Below are positions 52,267 to 60,820 of a DNA stretch of 64,000 bases, one piece after another. The stretch is from Myxococcota bacterium (GTDB taxonomy: Bacteria > Myxococcota > XYA12-FULL-58-9 > JALHOP01): contig JALHOP010000001.1 of NCBI GenBank assembly GCA_022842935.1, positions 434,001 through 498,000 of the forward strand, read 5' to 3'. A program made the translations under genes and the position numbers. Under the pieces are notes generated by a model that worked only from the letters and a program-made list of their open reading frames with translations, had not been told where the DNA came from and made no database searches. Numbering within the stretch: the first letter of the stretch is position 1; every line of letters starts with the position of its first letter.

Positions 52267-52440
52267 GTGTCTCGACGCGAAGGACCGAGCACGGCACTGG
52301 GTCTCGCCGCCATCGTAGCGGTTGTGGCGCTGTGTATCGCTGCGCGTGTCTTGTGGAGACAGTGGTCGGCGCAACATGTCCCGAACGAGGCGATCGAAGA
52401 CGTCTCGCCGCCGGGGCTTGGCGATGAGCGCCCGAAGTGA
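52267..52440 (+). CDS. Small single-pass membrane protein, 57 residues
   Basis: This short frame begins at GTG 52267, 12 bp after lysC, and encodes a polar N-terminus (MSRREGPST), one hydrophobic segment (ALGLAAIVAVVALCIAARVLW) and a short acidic cytoplasmic or periplasmic tail. Its TGA overlaps the psd start (GTGA), a classic coupling signal that supports both starts. Codons end mostly in G or C. The position between lysC and psd and the coupling argue that it is real despite its size. The role is unknown. Confidence 0.68.
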   Translation: MSRREGPSTALGLAAIVAVVALCIAARVLWRQWSAQHVPNEAIEDVSPPGLGDERPK

Positions 52441-53420
52441 GATATGCCCCGCCGATGCGGCCAGACACCATGACGAGACCTGACAACGACGATACGCCGA
52501 CGCCGGTCCCGACGCGGAGTAATCCGTTGCAAAGTGGGCTCGTTGTCGACCTCACGCGGCGCCTACCGCAGGCCGTCATTTCGCGCGCGTGGGGCTGGCT
52601 CGCTCGCCGCAAGCACCCGAAGGTGGGCGTCGCTCTCCTAAAGCGGACCTTCGTCAAGGCCACAGGCATCGACATGTCCGAGGCCCGTGAACCCATCGGC
52701 GACTATTCGACCCTCGAAGACCTCTTTGTGCGTCACCTGAAGGTCGGTGCTCGTCGCGTCGAGCCGCAACCAGACGCGGTCGTGAGCCCGGTTGACGGCA
52801 CTGTCGGCGAAGTTGGCGTCATCGAAGACGGCACCCTCATGCAGGTCAAGGGACGTCGCTACAGCCTCGCGCGGCTTCTCGATGACGACGTCGAAGCAAA
52901 GCGCTTCGAGGGTGGCGCTTACGCAACGTTGTACCTCGCGCCCAACGACTATCACCGCATCCACGCTCCCGTGGCTGGGAGTGTCTCTGAAGGGACGCTG
53001 ATACCTGGCGCGCTCTTCCCGGTGTTCCGCGAAGCTCTCGAGCGGATCGACGAGCTCTTCGCCCGCAACGAGCGAATCGTCACCTATATCGACAACAAGG
53101 CGTGTGGTCGCGTCGCGGTCGTCAAGGTGGGAGCTACCTTGGTTGGGCGCATCTCGCTTGCCTACGACGATAGTGTGCACAGTAACGTCAAAGGGCAGGC
53201 GCGCGCGGCACTCCGCTACGATCCACCCCATGCCATGCAGAAGGGCGCCGAGCTCGGTGCTTTCGAGCTCGGCTCGACCGTCATCCTGGTCTGTGAAGAG
53301 GGGCGTGTTTCTCTCGAGGGGCTCAGACCAGGTCGCAAGGTGAGGATGGGGCAGCGCATCGGCACCCTCGAGGATAGGCCCCGCACCAAGCGGTCGCGTT
53401 CACGCAAGTCGGAGGCATAG
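52437..53420 (+). CDS. psd: Phosphatidylserine decarboxylase
   Basis: It converts phosphatidylserine to phosphatidylethanolamine at the inner membrane. The 327-residue proenzyme has the catalytic Asp120 in SPVDG, the YHRIH site (His173, His176) and the self-cleavage motif LGS(280)T in FELGSTVIL, where Ser280 becomes the pyruvoyl group. The C-terminus is Lys/Arg-rich (RTKRSRSRKSEA), which may aid membrane contact. GTG 52437 overlaps the small gene before it; ATG 52455 is an alternative. The pgeF start overlaps its stop by 1 bp. Confidence 0.95.
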   Translation: MRYAPPMRPDTMTRPDNDDTPTPVPTRSNPLQSGLVVDLTRRLPQAVISRAWGWLARRKHPKVGVALLKRTFVKATGIDMSEAREPIGDYSTLEDLFVRHLKVGARRVEPQPDAVVSPVDGTVGEVGVIEDGTLMQVKGRRYSLARLLDDDVEAKRFEGGAYATLYLAPNDYHRIHAPVAGSVSEGTLIPGALFPVFREALERIDELFARNERIVTYIDNKACGRVAVVKVGATLVGRISLAYDDSVHSNVKGQARAALRYDPPHAMQKGAELGAFELGSTVILVCEEGRVSLEGLRPGRKVRMGQRIGTLEDRPRTKRSRSRKSEA

Positions 53421-54175
53421 TGACTGTCGCGATGCTGACATCGCAGGTCCTCTCGGGCGTTCCCGGGATTGTGCACGGTTTCACAACCCGCGATGGCGGA
53501 GTGAGCCAGGGCCCATTCGCGAGCTTGAACCTGGGTGGGGCGCAAGACGAACGCTCGACCATCGAAACGAATCGCGCGCTCGTCTTGGACACCTTGGGGC
53601 GCAAGGACGCGAGCTTCGTCGCCCTGCGCCAGGTCCATGGCAACGATGTCGTCCAGGTCACTCGCCTCGCGGGCCGTAGCATCGAGGCCGACGGGTTGTG
53701 GACGCGTGATCGCGGCGCGGTCTTGGCGGTGCTCGTCGCGGACTGCGTGCCGATCCTTTTCGCCGACCATCGGGGCAGGGCGGTGGGGGCGGTCCACGCT
53801 GGTTGGCGCGGGACAGCCTCGCGCATCGCCGCCGAAATGGTGAAGCGCCTCAAGGACGCGGACATTCCTCCTCACGATTTGCGTATCGCGATTGGGCCGG
53901 CGATCGGCCCGTCGGACTTCGAAATCGGGCCGGACGTCGTATTGGCTCTGGAGACGGCTTTCCCTTCACCTGGTGCGGCTATCCGACCAGGTCACGACGA
54001 CCGCTCGTACGCAGATCTGTGGGCCCTCAACAAGCGCTGCCTGCTCGAGGCGGGGGTCCCCGAGACCTGTATCGATGTGGTCGCCTACTCGACGCTCGCC
54101 GACGGACGATTCTTCTCGCACCGACGGGACAAAGGCGTCACTGGTCGTCAGGCTGGGGTCATCGGTCTCGCTTAA
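53420..54175 (+). CDS. pgeF: PgeF/YfiH-family protein (laccase-domain, peptidoglycan editing/purine nucleoside enzyme)
   Basis: A 251-residue protein with the catalytic triad His73 (QVHGNDV), Cys109 (ADCVPI) and His126 (VHAGWRG) that defines this family. E. coli YfiH (PgeF) is reported to remove mis-incorporated L-Ser from muropeptide precursors, and human LACC1 acts on purine nucleosides; which applies here is not known. Because CpoB-like and LysM genes follow 50 bp later, the peptidoglycan role is attractive. The GTG start overlaps psd by one base. Confidence 0.9.
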   Translation: MTVAMLTSQVLSGVPGIVHGFTTRDGGVSQGPFASLNLGGAQDERSTIETNRALVLDTLGRKDASFVALRQVHGNDVVQVTRLAGRSIEADGLWTRDRGAVLAVLVADCVPILFADHRGRAVGAVHAGWRGTASRIAAEMVKRLKDADIPPHDLRIAIGPAIGPSDFEIGPDVVLALETAFPSPGAAIRPGHDDRSYADLWALNKRCLLEAGVPETCIDVVAYSTLADGRFFSHRRDKGVTGRQAGVIGLA

Positions 54176-54225
54176 CAGCCCGCCGTTTTTTTGACCCGGC
54201 GCTCGGGACGCCCGACACTCGCTCC

Positions 54226-55011
54226 GTGCGACTGCTCTTCGTCTCACCTCTCATCGTCCTGTCCGCTTGCGCGCACTCTTCCGCGGGCGACATCGACAAC
54301 GCGCAGCTCGCGCGGAGCCTTGACGCACTGCGGGCTCAGGTGGCCGCCCAGGCGCAACAAATCGAGACGCTGCAAGGCCGAATCGACGTGATGACCGCCG
54401 CCAACGTGGCTCAAACGGCAGGGACGTCGCGAAACATGCGCGACCTCGAGGTCGTCAAGCTCACGCCCGCGCCCGTCCGCGCCGAGGCCGAAGAAGAACC
54501 GGTCATGCTCGAGATCACGGGTGAGGGTGACCGTCTCCAAGTCGTCAAAATGCCTCCTGCGCCACGGGCGCGCGCCGCTACGAAAGTCGCGGCAAGCCCG
54601 ACCAACGCCGCACCCGTCAAAGCGGACCCGCTAGACGGTCCCTTCGCGGACGCGCTCGACGCGTATCGGAACGGGCGCACCGAGGAAGCATTCGAGCGCT
54701 TCTCGAACCTCATGAAGAAGAGCCCCAAGGCTGAAAAAGCTTCGGCCGCGCTCTACTGGATGGGCGAGTCACGCTTCGACGACCAGCGCTACGATGAAGC
54801 CGTCGTGCAATACAAACGCCTGGTCGACGCCTATCCCTCGAGCAGTAAGGCCCCGGAGGCTCTCCTCAAGATGGGCATCAGCTTCGAGAAGCTAAAAGAC
54901 TCGGCGCGGGCGCGCGATGCGTTCCAGCGTCTCGTCGACGAACACCCTGACAGCGCTGTCGCGGAGCTCGCGCGCGCGCGTCCTGGCATCCGTGGAGGAC
55001 GCTCGAAATGA
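54226..55011 (+). CDS. CpoB/YbgF-like TPR lipoprotein
   Basis: The 261-residue protein has a lipoprotein signal from GTG 54226 (MRLLFVSPLIVLSACAHSSA, lipobox LSAC). A coiled-coil-like stretch (SLDALRAQVAAQAQQIETLQ), a linker rich in Ala/Pro/Lys, and three TPR-type units (ALYWMGESRFDDQRYDEAVV, PEALLKMGISFEKLKDSARA) follow. This is the arrangement of CpoB, which links cell-wall synthesis to the Tol-Pal system. No tolA, tolB or pal is present nearby. The LysM gene overlaps its stop by 4 bp. The longer ORF from 53803 lies inside pgeF and is rejected. Confidence 0.85.
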   Translation: MRLLFVSPLIVLSACAHSSAGDIDNAQLARSLDALRAQVAAQAQQIETLQGRIDVMTAANVAQTAGTSRNMRDLEVVKLTPAPVRAEAEEEPVMLEITGEGDRLQVVKMPPAPRARAATKVAASPTNAAPVKADPLDGPFADALDAYRNGRTEEAFERFSNLMKKSPKAEKASAALYWMGESRFDDQRYDEAVVQYKRLVDAYPSSSKAPEALLKMGISFEKLKDSARARDAFQRLVDEHPDSAVAELARARPGIRGGRSK

Positions 55012-56114
55012 TGTGGCAACGCCGGCCCGTGCGCATGACTGCGTACCATGCGGTCTTCGCCCTCCTGGTCGCCTCGGTGGTGGGATGGGTGCTCGTTGGC
55101 AGCTCGGCTACCCACGCCCAGACGCCGAGGAAGCGGCAGACGATCAACCCAGACGCCATTCCCTTCAGGCCGAACCTCGACACCTACATCGTCCAGCAGG
55201 GCGATAACCTCTGGAACATCACCCGCAAAGTCACGGGCTCGCCGTGGCTGTGGCCGCGCGTCTGGTCTTACAACCCAGAGATCACGAATCCGAACTGGAT
55301 CTACCCGGGCGACCAGATCCGCTTCTTCCCGAGCGACGTCGAGCTGCCGAGTCTCTATGACTTGGCGTCCGCACAGCGCGAGATTCCGGCAGACCAGCCA
55401 GCGAAGATCGTCGATGACGAGGCGCCCCGCCAGCGACCAGGCGGGGTCGACCCAGCGCGTTTCGTTGGCCTATTCGTGACCCCAAAGGAGCTGTCGGAGG
55501 CGGGGACGCTTCGCAACTCTGCGGACGAGCACATCCTCCTGTCGCGTAACGACCGCGTATTTCTTTCGTTCCCGCGCGAGAGTCAGCCGCGCAGCGGCGA
55601 GCGCTATTTCGTCTATCGCACGGTTGGCAAGGTGACCCACCCGGTCACCAAGAAGAACTTCGGATATATGACCGAGGTCACGGGCTTTGCCTCAATCGAA
55701 GAAGTCTACGAGAAGGTGAGCAAGGCCCGCATCGACGCCACCCGACTCGAGGTCGAGCGTGGACAGTTCGTGACCAAGCTCGAAGAGGACATCAAGGAGC
55801 GTGTCACTCCGACCAGCGCAAGCGCGCCGCTCGAAGGATACGTTTTGGCGGTCAACTACGACACCGGGGTGGTCGCCGGACAACACAACGTCGTCTTCAT
55901 CGACAAGGGTAAGAACGACGGTGTGCAACGCGGCAACCAGTTTACTGTCTCGAGGACGGACGACCCCATTCTCGGCGACCCCAAAGACCTACCGCCAAAG
56001 ACGATCGCTACCCTGATGGTGGTGGACACCCGGGACAACGCGTCGACGTGCCTGGTGGTTGCCGCCAAGCAAGAAGTGGAACCGGGTTTGAAGGTCAAGG
56101 CGATTACGCGATAG
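55008..56114 (+). CDS. LysM-domain exported protein
   Basis: A 368-residue protein with an N-terminal signal anchor (VFALLVASVVGWVLVGSSA). A LysM domain at residues 59-107 begins YIVQQGDNLWNITRKVTGSP and ends WIYPGDQIRFFP; LysM binds peptidoglycan. The rest is beta-rich, with a long helix (LEVERGQFVTKLEEDIKERV) and a C-terminal domain YVLAVNYDTGVVAGQHNVVF. It is in a run of four envelope genes and overlaps the gene before it (ATGA). It probably tethers the system to the cell wall. Confidence 0.88.
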   Translation: MMWQRRPVRMTAYHAVFALLVASVVGWVLVGSSATHAQTPRKRQTINPDAIPFRPNLDTYIVQQGDNLWNITRKVTGSPWLWPRVWSYNPEITNPNWIYPGDQIRFFPSDVELPSLYDLASAQREIPADQPAKIVDDEAPRQRPGGVDPARFVGLFVTPKELSEAGTLRNSADEHILLSRNDRVFLSFPRESQPRSGERYFVYRTVGKVTHPVTKKNFGYMTEVTGFASIEEVYEKVSKARIDATRLEVERGQFVTKLEEDIKERVTPTSASAPLEGYVLAVNYDTGVVAGQHNVVFIDKGKNDGVQRGNQFTVSRTDDPILGDPKDLPPKTIATLMVVDTRDNASTCLVVAAKQEVEPGLKVKAITR

Positions 56115-56124
56115 GGTTTGAGGC

Positions 56125-58578
56125 ATGCCCCGATCAGCGTTGGCTGCCTGCGTCCTCTTGTGCGTCGCGAAAGTCACGTCTGCTGCCGAGCCCGCGACGG
56201 TTCGTCTCCCGCTCGACCAGTGGCAACAAGCCGTCGACGGGGTCCGCGAGCTCGAAAAGCCCCCGGCGCCGCAACATCCTTACGCGGTCGTCCGGCGTAA
56301 CGTCGACGTCGCATTCGCTCGCGGTGTCCTCACCGGCAGCATGGACGCCGAGATCGACGTCGATACGCTCGACCGCACGGTGACAGTGCCGTTGCTCGAC
56401 GACGAGGCCTCGCTTTCGTCCATCACCGTCGACGGTGCCGCCGCAGTCGCTACACGAGCGGACGGCATGAATGCGGTGCTCATTGCCACGCGCGGTCGCC
56501 ATCGCGTGCATCTAACGTTTGCCAAGGGTCAGGACGAAGACCGCTTCACGCGCGGCTTCTCGCTCATGCTGCCGCCTGGGCCTGTGACCCGTGTCGTTGC
56601 TCTCTTGCCCGAGGCCGATGTCGAAGCCGAGCTCGACGGCGGCGTCATCCTCTCGCAGAGCCGCGGTGGGAGCGGGACACGTATCGACGCGGCGATGGGC
56701 GCCTCGGGTGAGCTGTCGTTGCATTGGCGGCGTCGCGCCGCAGATGCGAGCAGCGCCAAGCGCGAGCTCGAAGCCCGCATGTTCGTGCTGGCGAGCGTCC
56801 ACGAGCAGACCGTACGAACGCGCACGACCATCGCGTATCGCGTACTTGCTGGCGAAGCATCGCGCTTCGAGCTCGCGATCCCGGAGGGTGTGGAGGTTAC
56901 GTCCGTTACCGGCGACGCCGTGCTCCAATGGACGGCCGAACGCCGCGGCAGCGAGCGCGTCGTCACGACCCTGCTCAAATATCTGGTCGACGACGCGACG
57001 AGCATCGAGGTGGCCACTCAGCACCCGCGCGGCTCTGGAGGTAGCGCCGATTTGAAGCTCGTCCGCGCTAGCGATGCGACGTTGCGCGAGGGCTTCATCG
57101 CGCTCGAGGGCCGAGCCGGTTTCGAGCTTGCCGTGACCCGGAGCGAAGACGCGGCGGCGATGCCGACGGCCGATCTCCCCACCGAGCTGCTTTCGGCTAC
57201 CGACAAGCCACTCCTCGCCGCGTTTCGTTTCGAGAAGGAGCCCAAGGTCGCCGTCACTGTCACGCGCAACGAGCAAGTGGAGCTCACCCAGGCAGTCATC
57301 GACGACCTCGAGGCCGTGACTATCGTTGGCGAGGACGGCGTTGAAGTCGTGAAGCTCAAGCTCTTCGTCCGCAACAACACACGCCAGTATCTCGGTGTGA
57401 CCTTGCCGGCGGACAGCCACGTCACCCACGCTCTCATCGACGGTGCGCCGATCCAGCCCGCCGTGACGACCAGCGAGGCGGCGGAGGTCTTGCTTGTACC
57501 GTTACGCCAGTCGCAGAAGATCGGTTCGCGCGGCCGCCGTGTCCACTACGTCCAAGCGGGCGATACGCTTGGCGGTATTGCATTGCGTTATTACAACCGC
57601 GCTGACCGCGCCCGCGAGATCGCGGTGGCCAATGGAAACGTCCGCGCTGACCAGCTGCAGGTGGGTCAGGCGTTGGTGGTGCCAAGCGGAGGCGGCTCGG
57701 TGCAGGAGAGCAGCTTCGTCGTCGAGCTCGCCTACGAGACCCGGCGCGCAGCACTTGGGACTTTCGGTCGCCGCGTGCTGACCTTGCCGTCGCTCGACAT
57801 CGCGGTCATGACCGTCCACTGGAATGCCTACTTGCCGAACGCCTACGAGCCGCTGCGTTTTGCGACCGACCTGCGCCAGCTCGACGGACTCCGCTACGAC
57901 CCACTGACACGCCTGCGCTATTACATCCAAACCGCGCTAGCGACCCGGGACGCTTGGGCGGGTGGCAGCGGCGAATACGAGAACATCCTCCGCTCGCGGA
58001 AGATGATCTACGACAAAGAGCAGAAGAAGCAGGCGAAGGTCGTGCTCACCTCATTCCCGCTCGTGGGTGAGCGGTATCGCTTCAGTCGCGTACTTCTCGG
58101 CAAAGAGCGCGCCATGCTGGACGTCAGCTATGTGCGCCGAAGCGTACAGCCTTGGCTGCGCGGCGTGGTTTTCGTTTGTGTCGCCCTGGCGCTGTGGGTC
58201 TGGCTCACGCGCAGCCGCGAGCACGGCCGGCTTGCCTGGCGCGACCGCGATTTCGCCGTGCTCGTGTTGATGCTCGTCCTCGCGAGCGTTCTTGGACACT
58301 ATGTGCTCGGCATTCACCGGAGCGTCTTGCTCGCGCTCGACGTGAGCCTGTTGTTGTTCTTGATTCATGACATCTGGCGCACGTGGAGGCCAACGTTACG
58401 GACATCGCATCAAACGATGGTTTTGAAGCGTGGCTTTCGGGGGCGTTGGCTCTTGCAATTCGTTGGGCTTGTCGTTGCGGCATACGTCTTGGTGATGTTC
58501 CCGATGTTCTGGAGCCTCATCGCATTGGTCGTGCTCGCGGGGCTCGTGGCTCGCCGCGTGGAGGTGCGCCGTGGTTAG
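56125..58578 (+). CDS. Large envelope protein A, beta domains with inserted LysM and C-terminal membrane segments
   Basis: The 817-residue precursor has a signal at 1-20. Beta-rich regions cover 55-460, with the motif VRNNTRQYLGVTLP at 415-428. A LysM domain at 472-520 (VHYVQAGDTLGGIALRYYNR, ending QVGQALVVP) interrupts the domain, which resumes at FVVELAYETRRAALGTFGRR. The last 130 residues have four or five hydrophobic segments. Its paralogue downstream has the same phrases on either side of the LysM position but no LysM. The gene lies 10 bp after the previous gene and overlaps the next. Its function is not known. Confidence 0.85.
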   Translation: MPRSALAACVLLCVAKVTSAAEPATVRLPLDQWQQAVDGVRELEKPPAPQHPYAVVRRNVDVAFARGVLTGSMDAEIDVDTLDRTVTVPLLDDEASLSSITVDGAAAVATRADGMNAVLIATRGRHRVHLTFAKGQDEDRFTRGFSLMLPPGPVTRVVALLPEADVEAELDGGVILSQSRGGSGTRIDAAMGASGELSLHWRRRAADASSAKRELEARMFVLASVHEQTVRTRTTIAYRVLAGEASRFELAIPEGVEVTSVTGDAVLQWTAERRGSERVVTTLLKYLVDDATSIEVATQHPRGSGGSADLKLVRASDATLREGFIALEGRAGFELAVTRSEDAAAMPTADLPTELLSATDKPLLAAFRFEKEPKVAVTVTRNEQVELTQAVIDDLEAVTIVGEDGVEVVKLKLFVRNNTRQYLGVTLPADSHVTHALIDGAPIQPAVTTSEAAEVLLVPLRQSQKIGSRGRRVHYVQAGDTLGGIALRYYNRADRAREIAVANGNVRADQLQVGQALVVPSGGGSVQESSFVVELAYETRRAALGTFGRRVLTLPSLDIAVMTVHWNAYLPNAYEPLRFATDLRQLDGLRYDPLTRLRYYIQTALATRDAWAGGSGEYENILRSRKMIYDKEQKKQAKVVLTSFPLVGERYRFSRVLLGKERAMLDVSYVRRSVQPWLRGVVFVCVALALWVWLTRSREHGRLAWRDRDFAVLVLMLVLASVLGHYVLGIHRSVLLALDVSLLLFLIHDIWRTWRPTLRTSHQTMVLKRGFRGRWLLQFVGLVVAAYVLVMFPMFWSLIALVVLAGLVARRVEVRRG

Positions 58579-60820
58579 TCGCTGGACTTTCTTGGCGGTG
58601 CTCATCGCGGCGGTCTCAGCGCACGCCCAAGAGGTCACCATGCCGCTCTCGGAGTGGCAGGGCCTGCGCGAGCGTGAACGCGCGCTGCGCGAACGCGCTG
58701 AGCTTTCGGGCGACGCCGAGGTTGTCGTTGGCGTCACGCGCTATCGTGGGCGCATCGACGCCGCCGGCCTGCATCTCACCATGGTGATGCGGGTCGAGCT
58801 CGGCGCGAACGACCGCTACAAGGACGTGGCCGTGATCGGCAACCGCGTCGTGGTGATCGCGGCGCGCGTGGCTGCGGGGCCGATCGCGCTCATTGACGAT
58901 GGCCAGTATTGGACCTGGGTTACGAAGCAGCGTGGGGTCGCGGAGCTCACGGTCGAGTTGGTCGTGCCAGCGAGCGGCCCGCGTGGTTCGGCCGAATATC
59001 TCTTCGAAGTCGTCGAGAGCCCGGTCACCGATCTGACCTGCGCCTTCGCCGACCGTGACCTGTCTCCGCGCGTCGATGGCGCTGTGAGCAATGTCGTTCG
59101 CCAGACGCCCACCGGTGGAGAGCTTACGGCCATCATCGGTCCCACCCAGAGCATCCATCTCGTCGGCTTTCGCGAGCTCGCACAGGCCCCGACGGCGGCG
59201 GCCAAGCTCTACGCGGATACGCAGAGCCTGATGTCCCTCGCTGACGAAAGTGTCGAGCTGTTCACGGTTGTGAACCTCACGATCTTGTACGCTCCGCAGA
59301 AGCGCTTCCGTATCGCGCTCCCTGCCGGCTACGAGTTGGTCAGCGCGGACGGCGAGGGGGCTTTCCAATACACAGTCGACAGTGTCGACGGGACGCGGGT
59401 CATCACGGGCGAGACCAGCTACGGTATCCGCCAGAGCTACGAAATTTCGCTACGCCTCAAAAGGCCTCTCGCGGCTGGCGAGACGTCGGTGCCGCTCGCC
59501 ATCCCACGGATGCTCGACGTCGAACGCGATAGCGGCTTCGTCGCCATCGAGGTGCCAGGCAAGATTGCCATTACCGCCGTTACGCCAGAAGGCGCGGCTC
59601 GCTTCACGCCCCTCGACGTGCGCGAGTTGCCGGCGACTCTCATCGACAGCAGCGTGACGCCTATCGTTCGTGCGTTTCAATACAGCGATGCCGCGAGTCG
59701 TGGGGCCATTGGCATTGCTCGCTATCCGACCAAGCCTGTTGAGGGCGACAGTATCGACGCGCTGGTCGTGCATACGGTCGCGACGGAGGACGGCTCGCGC
59801 CTTACGGAGCTGTCGGTGAAGTTGCGGAATGCGCATCGGCAATATCTCACTGTTCAAGTCCCGAGCGCCGCCACGATTCGTAGCGCGACGGTCGAGGGCG
59901 AGCCCGTGAAGCCAAGCCGCGACGCGCAAGGCAAGCTCCTCCTGCCTCTCGTGCGCTCGCGCCAGGACGATGACGGGTTACGGCCCATCAACGTGCAGCT
60001 GGTCTATCAGGAGCAGGGTGGCGTCTTCTCGATCGTCGGGCGCGCGCACTTCGGTCTTCCCGCAATCGAGCTGCCCATCGCCTCGTTGCAGTGGACCGTC
60101 GACGTGCCGCAGCGCTACGCCGTCTCACGCCTGCGCGGCCCGGTCGCCCAGCAAAGTTACGCAGGGACGGCGCAGTGGCAGAGGCCGCGCGCGGCTGACG
60201 CGTTCCGCGATGACGACGGGGGTTATGACCAGCTCGACAACGCCCTCGAAGAGGGCACGCGGGCGCAAGGCGCGCGCCAGGGTCACGCGTTCGGTGGCAT
60301 CCGCCGTTCGGCGCCGCTCCCCATCCAGGCTCAAGTGCCTGGCAATGTCGGTGACGGAAATAGCGGTGGGGTGGCGGTCCGCGTTCAGGTTCCGCATGCA
60401 GGGCGCGAGATGGCGTATCGCCGCTATTGGATCGACGCTCAGGATCCCGTTTGGGTCGAGCTCACCTACCTGCGTCGCGCGTGGCTACGCGGGCTCGAGA
60501 TGCTGCTCGCTTTGTCGTTAGCGGCTGGGGCTATCTTCATGGTGTGGCGCGCGGATAAGCGCCGCCGTGCCGTCGTGACGTGGCTGCGCGACCTCGCCAA
60601 GACGCAGTGGCTGCGCATGGCGGAGGGCGCGCGCTTTTGGAGCGGAGCCTTTGCCGACCGTTTTGCCGCACGCCGAAAAGCCAGCCCGACGTGGGCGTTC
60701 ATCGCCGCGGGGATCGAGCTCGGGGTTGTCTCTGGGATCGCGGTCGCGATCACGCTTCTCACCATCGCCTTGATGGTGGCTGTCACACGTTTGTTGTGGC
60801 TCGCGGGCCATCCGCTTTAG
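58571..60820 (+). CDS. Large envelope protein B, paralogue of the preceding gene without LysM
   Basis: A GTG start gives a 749-residue protein with signal MVSRWTFLAVLIAAVSAHAQ. Shared elements with protein A: the opening phrase [LM]PL-[DS]-[QE]WQ, a strand block RFRIALPAGYELVSADGEG (A: RFELAIPEGVEVTSVTGDA), RNAHRQYLTVQVP at 419-431, LLLPLVRSRQ, and NVQLVYQEQGGVFSIVGRAH. Around residue 590 it has a Gly/Gln/Arg linker, and near the end are two hydrophobic segments (RGLEMLLALSLAAGAIFMVW and the last 30 residues). Coding overlap with A is 8 bp. A heteromeric envelope complex with A is plausible. Confidence 0.85.
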   Translation: MVSRWTFLAVLIAAVSAHAQEVTMPLSEWQGLRERERALRERAELSGDAEVVVGVTRYRGRIDAAGLHLTMVMRVELGANDRYKDVAVIGNRVVVIAARVAAGPIALIDDGQYWTWVTKQRGVAELTVELVVPASGPRGSAEYLFEVVESPVTDLTCAFADRDLSPRVDGAVSNVVRQTPTGGELTAIIGPTQSIHLVGFRELAQAPTAAAKLYADTQSLMSLADESVELFTVVNLTILYAPQKRFRIALPAGYELVSADGEGAFQYTVDSVDGTRVITGETSYGIRQSYEISLRLKRPLAAGETSVPLAIPRMLDVERDSGFVAIEVPGKIAITAVTPEGAARFTPLDVRELPATLIDSSVTPIVRAFQYSDAASRGAIGIARYPTKPVEGDSIDALVVHTVATEDGSRLTELSVKLRNAHRQYLTVQVPSAATIRSATVEGEPVKPSRDAQGKLLLPLVRSRQDDDGLRPINVQLVYQEQGGVFSIVGRAHFGLPAIELPIASLQWTVDVPQRYAVSRLRGPVAQQSYAGTAQWQRPRAADAFRDDDGGYDQLDNALEEGTRAQGARQGHAFGGIRRSAPLPIQAQVPGNVGDGNSGGVAVRVQVPHAGREMAYRRYWIDAQDPVWVELTYLRRAWLRGLEMLLALSLAAGAIFMVWRADKRRRAVVTWLRDLAKTQWLRMAEGARFWSGAFADRFAARRKASPTWAFIAAGIELGVVSGIAVAITLLTIALMVAVTRLLWLAGHPL

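Follow-up and report, generated by a model that had tools for sequence, protein, structure and literature searches.

LysM domains normally meet glycan in the periplasm. The M1 aminopeptidases, among them PepN, LTA4H, and ERAP1, carry an N-terminal beta domain together with helical and catalytic domains, and two luminal domains have been described for Ost1, the ribophorin I (RPN1) protein of yeast (PMC7226087). Here, we describe two adjoining genes, A and B, whose products are predicted to resemble each of these systems in part; they lie in a 64,000-nucleotide stretch of a Myxococcota genome (the window). LysM and the M1-N-like fold are known parts, and what is new is their arrangement, an obligate pair of predicted ribophorin-like membrane proteins in which a single partner holds a looped-in LysM. 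We found no description of the family in the literature and no Pfam or NCBIfam family covering the ectodomain. Searches of A and B against Pfam, NCBIfam, and (by sequence) the PDB returned LysM as the sole match, and B was without any Pfam match. The features of the locus are collected in Table 1.

Table 1. Features of the A-B locus, numbered from the first nucleotide of the window (domain boundaries and folds are predictions; res, residues)
Feature	Coordinates	Strand	Description
Upstream secreted LysM protein	55008..56114	+	368 aa; PF01476 26.5 bits; probable operon partner in this genome
Gene A	56125..58578	+	817 aa, ATG start; signal peptide, three M1-N-like beta domains, LysM insert, C-terminal membrane domain
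A domain 1	56272..56736	+	res 50-204; M1-aminopeptidase N-domain-like; VIA-align Z 13.8, rmsd 2.9 over 142-150 residues
A domain 2	56752..57279	+	res 210-385; equivalent of the first luminal domain in Ost1/ribophorin I
A domain 3	57280..58140	+	res 386-672; split by LysM insert and helical insert; holds RNNxRQYL motif
Insert between two beta strands of A domain 3	57520..57702	+	A res 466-526; absent from B
LysM domain of A	57544..57684	+	res 474-520; PF01476 30.1 bits against a cut-off of 20.9
Second insert in A domain 3	57886..58053	+	res 588-643; predicted helical hairpin, low confidence
A membrane domain	58144..58560	+	res 674-812; probably five transmembrane helices, cytoplasmic C terminus; from hydropathy, AF2 helices, positively charged loops
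Shine-Dalgarno GGAGGTG of gene B	58560..58566	+	inside 3' end of gene A; equivalent site in 10/10 unfused loci inspected
Gene B	58571..60820	+	749 aa, GTG start; signal peptide, three M1-N-like domains, no LysM, C-terminal membrane segments
B domain 1	58709..59176	+	res 47-202; M1-N-like; against E. coli PepN Z 13.5, rmsd 3.5 over 153
B domains 2 and 3	59192..60478	+	res 208-636; ribophorin-I-like tandem
Short turn in B at the place of the A LysM	59948..59986	+	B res 460-472

The sequence-only reading had proposed that A and B are duplicates sharing blocks of sequence in the same order. The quoted motifs are present in both proteins, and BLASTP aligned them over A 153-465 (112 bits, E 2e-29), with a second segment past the LysM (A 533-574/B 475-516). 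Profile-profile alignment of the two families, the comparison which that reading had suggested, extended over 638 columns (P 3.6e-51) with one large gap, the LysM. Domain-by-domain comparison using hhalign gave 97.5, 99.2, and 99.8% for domains 1, 2, and 3, making domain 3 the best conserved between the proteins. Modeled separately, A and B showed the same three-domain architecture, with no switch to unrelated folds outside the quoted motifs. A and B are paralogues along their ectodomains, in all three domains.

The two open reading frames overlap by 8 nt. In the window and in the nine unfused relatives inspected, the 3' end of A contains both the Shine-Dalgarno sequence of B (GGAGGTG or a GGAGGTGG-like variant) and the B start codon, an arrangement which indicates translational coupling of the two genes. 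Two genomes that sit on different branches of the tree (G005, locus L050, and G011, locus L054) have A and B fused in a single open reading frame of ~1,600 aa. These fusions look genuine rather than being sequencing slips, because both are without the internal Shine-Dalgarno sequence and both retain the signal-like hydrophobic segment of B. Fusion of A to that segment implies a cytoplasmic C terminus for A, in agreement with a probable topology of five membrane helices whose inner loops are positively charged. B has two C-terminal hydrophobic segments in this genome and more in most orthologues, and both proteins thus end in membrane segments, as the earlier reading had it. In most orthologues, additional hydrophobic segments lie in the middle of this region near the C terminus; the B of the window is without them (60550-60720) and thus may have just two membrane crossings.

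To survey the pair we collected 24 A orthologues, 22 B proteins, and 14 other paralogues. A scan of genome contigs with a single sequence gave zero matches, and a search with the family alignment did find matches. A-family matches at an E value of ≤1e-10 were obtained in 18 of the 195 genomes of the phylum, a tally that takes in relatives without LysM (e.g., the G016 and G030 loci). By name, the matches belong to Deltaproteobacteria, Myxococcota, and Myxococcales metagenome-assembled genomes and to four Polyangium genomes. B lay directly downstream of A at every one of the 21 loci where the contig continues, cultured Polyangium included; three further A copies are at contig ends and fall outside these 21 testable loci. 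The A-B pair is a conserved Myxococcota module, in which a LysM-bearing A and a LysM-free B recur.

In the model of A, the LysM insert sits in a beta-hairpin between strand 453-459 (LLVPLRQ) and strand 529-540 (SFVVELAY), and in the model of B the equivalent strands are joined by a short turn. The location proposed from the sequence was correct and the proposed size of about 58 residues was too small: the span from PLRQ to FVVELAY is 68 residues in A compared with 6 in B, or ~62 extra. The sequences flanking the LysM are invariant (PLRQS) or near invariant (ESSFVIELAY) across the A family. A LysM family profile matched 24/24 A orthologues, 0/22 B proteins, and 0/14 other paralogues (a weak A-like match, L117 in G182, is unreadable in one frame and was left out of these counts), and the Pfam LysM model matched 14 of 15 aligned A members at an E value of ≤0.1. 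The insertion is fixed in every A orthologue seen and is neither recent nor local.

A tree of 61 rows was computed with the LysM columns removed. It placed A in one clade (bootstrap, 100/100) and B in another (100/99), and the distribution of LysM on it requires one change, on the A stem. As B, the other myxococcal pairs, and the PVC proteins are all without LysM, this change is most simply read as a single gain in A, the tree being unrooted. The earlier statement that LysM was gained or lost in a loop of a duplicated protein therefore stands as to duplication and hairpin, with gain as the simplest reading of the direction.

The A-family LysM keeps the usual pattern (GETL, IA, and L..GQ.L.IP) and presumably binds peptidoglycan. 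Its closest sequence in the PDB, however, is the potassium-binding protein Kbp (E 2e-8), which makes wall binding uncertain. That match, together with linkers conserved as strongly as fixed packing would demand, would suit a LysM that serves the complex structurally or as an interaction module, for instance through contact with B or with an ion. Given the retained LysM pattern and the predicted periplasmic location, we judge such a role unlikely. The sequence-only reading had spoken of one wall-binding and one nonbinding partner; a LysM-bearing and a LysM-free partner are indeed what is found, and the binding itself is presumed from the domain.

AlphaFold2 models built from orthologues only were of moderate confidence (mean pLDDT of 74 for A and 68 for B). 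They suggest a name for the shared domain, which had seemed unnameable from the letters: each ectodomain is predicted to consist of three tandem M1-N-like beta domains, the last two in ribophorin I order. Foldseek returned Ost1/ribophorin I as the best PDB match of both models (E 4e-10 for A and 4e-8 for B), and the structural matches to Ost1/RPN1 had Z scores of 15.0 to 15.4. Using VIA-align, A 212-673 matched yeast Ost1 28-443 (Z 15.0, 309 aligned, rmsd 14) and B 211-636 matched human RPN1 29-431 (Z 15.2, 309 aligned, rmsd 16); with global rmsd values of 14 to 16 Å, these two-domain matches do not reproduce the relative domain orientation. The models thus place two tandem beta domains ahead of a membrane helix, as in ribophorin I, at a large global rmsd. 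The fold of the M1 N-terminal domain is likewise predicted (Z 13 to 14), and A 386-669 matched LTA4H 12-208 with a Z of 13.3 and an rmsd of 3.6 over 164 residues.

Sequence comparisons gave no counterpart to these likenesses. The profile-profile comparison with M1_N was not significant, the PF17900 matches in G000 did not include the A-B locus, and neither A nor B had an M1 catalytic domain or a Pfam M1 match. Pfam scans of A and B gave no hit to Ribophorin_I (PF04597), and at the locus this model had none at an E value of ≤10. Profile comparison among domains 1, 2, and 3 was also not significant, leaving predicted fold as the sole link among the three copies. The likeness to M1 aminopeptidases and to ribophorin I is one of predicted fold, without sequence support.

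If A and B were degenerate M1 aminopeptidases, they would have lost the catalytic domain and persisted as inert structural proteins after a chance duplication. Their domains 1 and 3 do match M1 N-domains, but the presence of three copies in each chain, the membrane domains, and the strict conservation of the pair at 32 to 44% identity point to a selected function, and the sequence link to M1_N was not found; we regard this as very improbable. If they were instead an accessory of bacterial oligosaccharyltransfer, and so true functional kin of ribophorin I, the top structural match of both models and its position of membrane entry would be explained. Against this, no STT3/PglB-type enzyme was found in most A-B genomes, and an STT3 search of the window's genome (97% complete) gave no match, which makes the role unlikely. 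In addition, the Pfam Ribophorin_I family did not match, more membrane helices replace the cytosolic ribosome-binding domain, and OST1 has been reported only from eukaryotes and from TACK and Asgard archaea (PMC11417166). We consider this the least credible explanation. Membership of A-B in the oligosaccharyltransferase was rejected on the missing PF04597 match and the missing STT3, and the accessory reading is already largely refuted.

In this genome, psd, a pgeF/yfiH-like gene (we take both names from reading the sequence), a CpoB/YbgF-like gene (54226-55011), the LysM protein gene, A, and B follow one another on one strand (52437-60820), and three of the junctions overlap, by 1, 4, and 8 nt. 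From this layout, the region is likely an envelope operon. The product of 54226-55011 is a CpoB-like TPR lipoprotein, and in one relative (L091) a protein with an OmpA-family C-terminal domain is encoded just upstream of A-B. Such neighbors, though not conserved, fit an envelope role. The upstream LysM gene is not found beside A-B in the other genomes compared, and no operon context beyond A-B is conserved across the phylum, neighbors being shared only within close groups; the neighbors name no process for A-B. In one genome group, a TldD/PmbA-like gene with an apparent signal peptide lies upstream of A-B (L082, 7461-9239; L098, 7447-9207). TldD/PmbA proteins normally are cytoplasmic.

A third class of paralogue (~1,040 aa) lies directly 3' of a gene for a zinc-finger-like and VWA membrane protein (L074, 3669-10283, with equivalents in L067, L073, L075, and L076). 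In L074 that gene is preceded by an ECF sigma factor gene, and the locus may encode a sigma/anti-sigma system that includes a ribophorin-like membrane protein. A and B could form an envelope sensor, their ectodomains reading the state of the wall or of secretion and signaling through the membrane helices to a stress response; DUF4388 response regulators just downstream of A-B in some loci would agree with this. However, A-B itself has no sigma or anti-sigma gene beside it, its neighbors differ by lineage, and Pfam scans found no recognizable cytoplasmic signaling domain in A or B. A sensor is a less probable reading here, though the setting of the third class keeps it in play.

On balance, we lean toward the view that A and B are the cotranslated subunits of one inner-membrane-anchored complex, an envelope scaffold pinned to peptidoglycan by the LysM of A. 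Each protein would be exported via its signal peptide and would display in the periplasm three M1-aminopeptidase-N-like beta domains lacking a catalytic domain, the last two leading into the membrane as in ribophorin I. The C-terminal helices of both would sit in the inner membrane. The LysM, looped out of the third-domain hairpin on its conserved linkers, would pin the complex to peptidoglycan, and B would offer the same surface without the tether. Such a complex most likely would span from membrane to wall and hold or guide a protein, or report on the wall. We infer both the contact between A and B and the scaffold role, and the tether is deduced from the parts. This view is supported by the paralogy of all three domains and the common architecture of the separate models; by the invariable position of B directly 3' of A, its start signals inside A, and the two in-frame fusions; and by the restriction of LysM to A, the two clades, and the conserved LysM flanks. 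The Kbp match, the unconserved neighbors, the moderate pLDDT, and the large rmsd to Ost1/RPN1 count against it. A bolder version, in which a bacterial ribophorin-I-like heterodimer with triple M1-N-like ectodomains, wall pinned via its looped-out LysM, captures or guides newly exported periplasmic polypeptides, is speculative, and we think it improbable.

An unnamed and strictly paired protein family thus gains a predicted fold, a predicted topology, and a testable role. The presence of LysM in one partner and not the other is a built-in contrast for what wall tethering adds, and the pair occurs in Polyangium fumosum DSM 14668, which is in culture. Should function follow the ribophorin-like fold, this would be, to our knowledge, the first bacterial use of that architecture.

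Relatives of A and B include unnamed giant PVC proteins (L100 and L101) and Myxococcota paralogue pairs (L064, L065, and L066), which have the same RN[NR]xxQ[FY]L beta module, often paired or as two halves of one chain. Unlike A, none of them has LysM, and the PVC proteins have more domains per half. The latter (2,300 aa; L100, 4664-11557, and L101) consist of two halves of the same module, with a DUF1559 fragment (PF07596) lying between the halves of L100. As to M1 aminopeptidases, A domains 1 and 3 are predicted to share their N-terminal fold (rmsd of 2.9 to 3.6 over 142 to 164 residues); unlike them, A and B have no catalytic or helical domain and no sequence link, are membrane anchored, and carry three tandem copies. 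The predicted domains 2 and 3 of A and of B match the two luminal beta domains of Ost1/RPN1, which resemble each other, and they lead into a membrane helix at the same place. A and B differ in their extra N-terminal domain, in being two paralogous subunits with LysM in one, in having several membrane helices rather than one and no cytosolic ribosome-binding domain, and in showing no detectable sequence similarity in a genome where STT3 was not found. Finally, like other LysM-bearing envelope proteins, A is membrane anchored and has a predicted periplasmic LysM scoring above the Pfam cut-off; unlike in them, this LysM interrupts a beta-hairpin of another domain instead of sitting at one end, and a LysM-free paralogue, B, is always encoded beside it.
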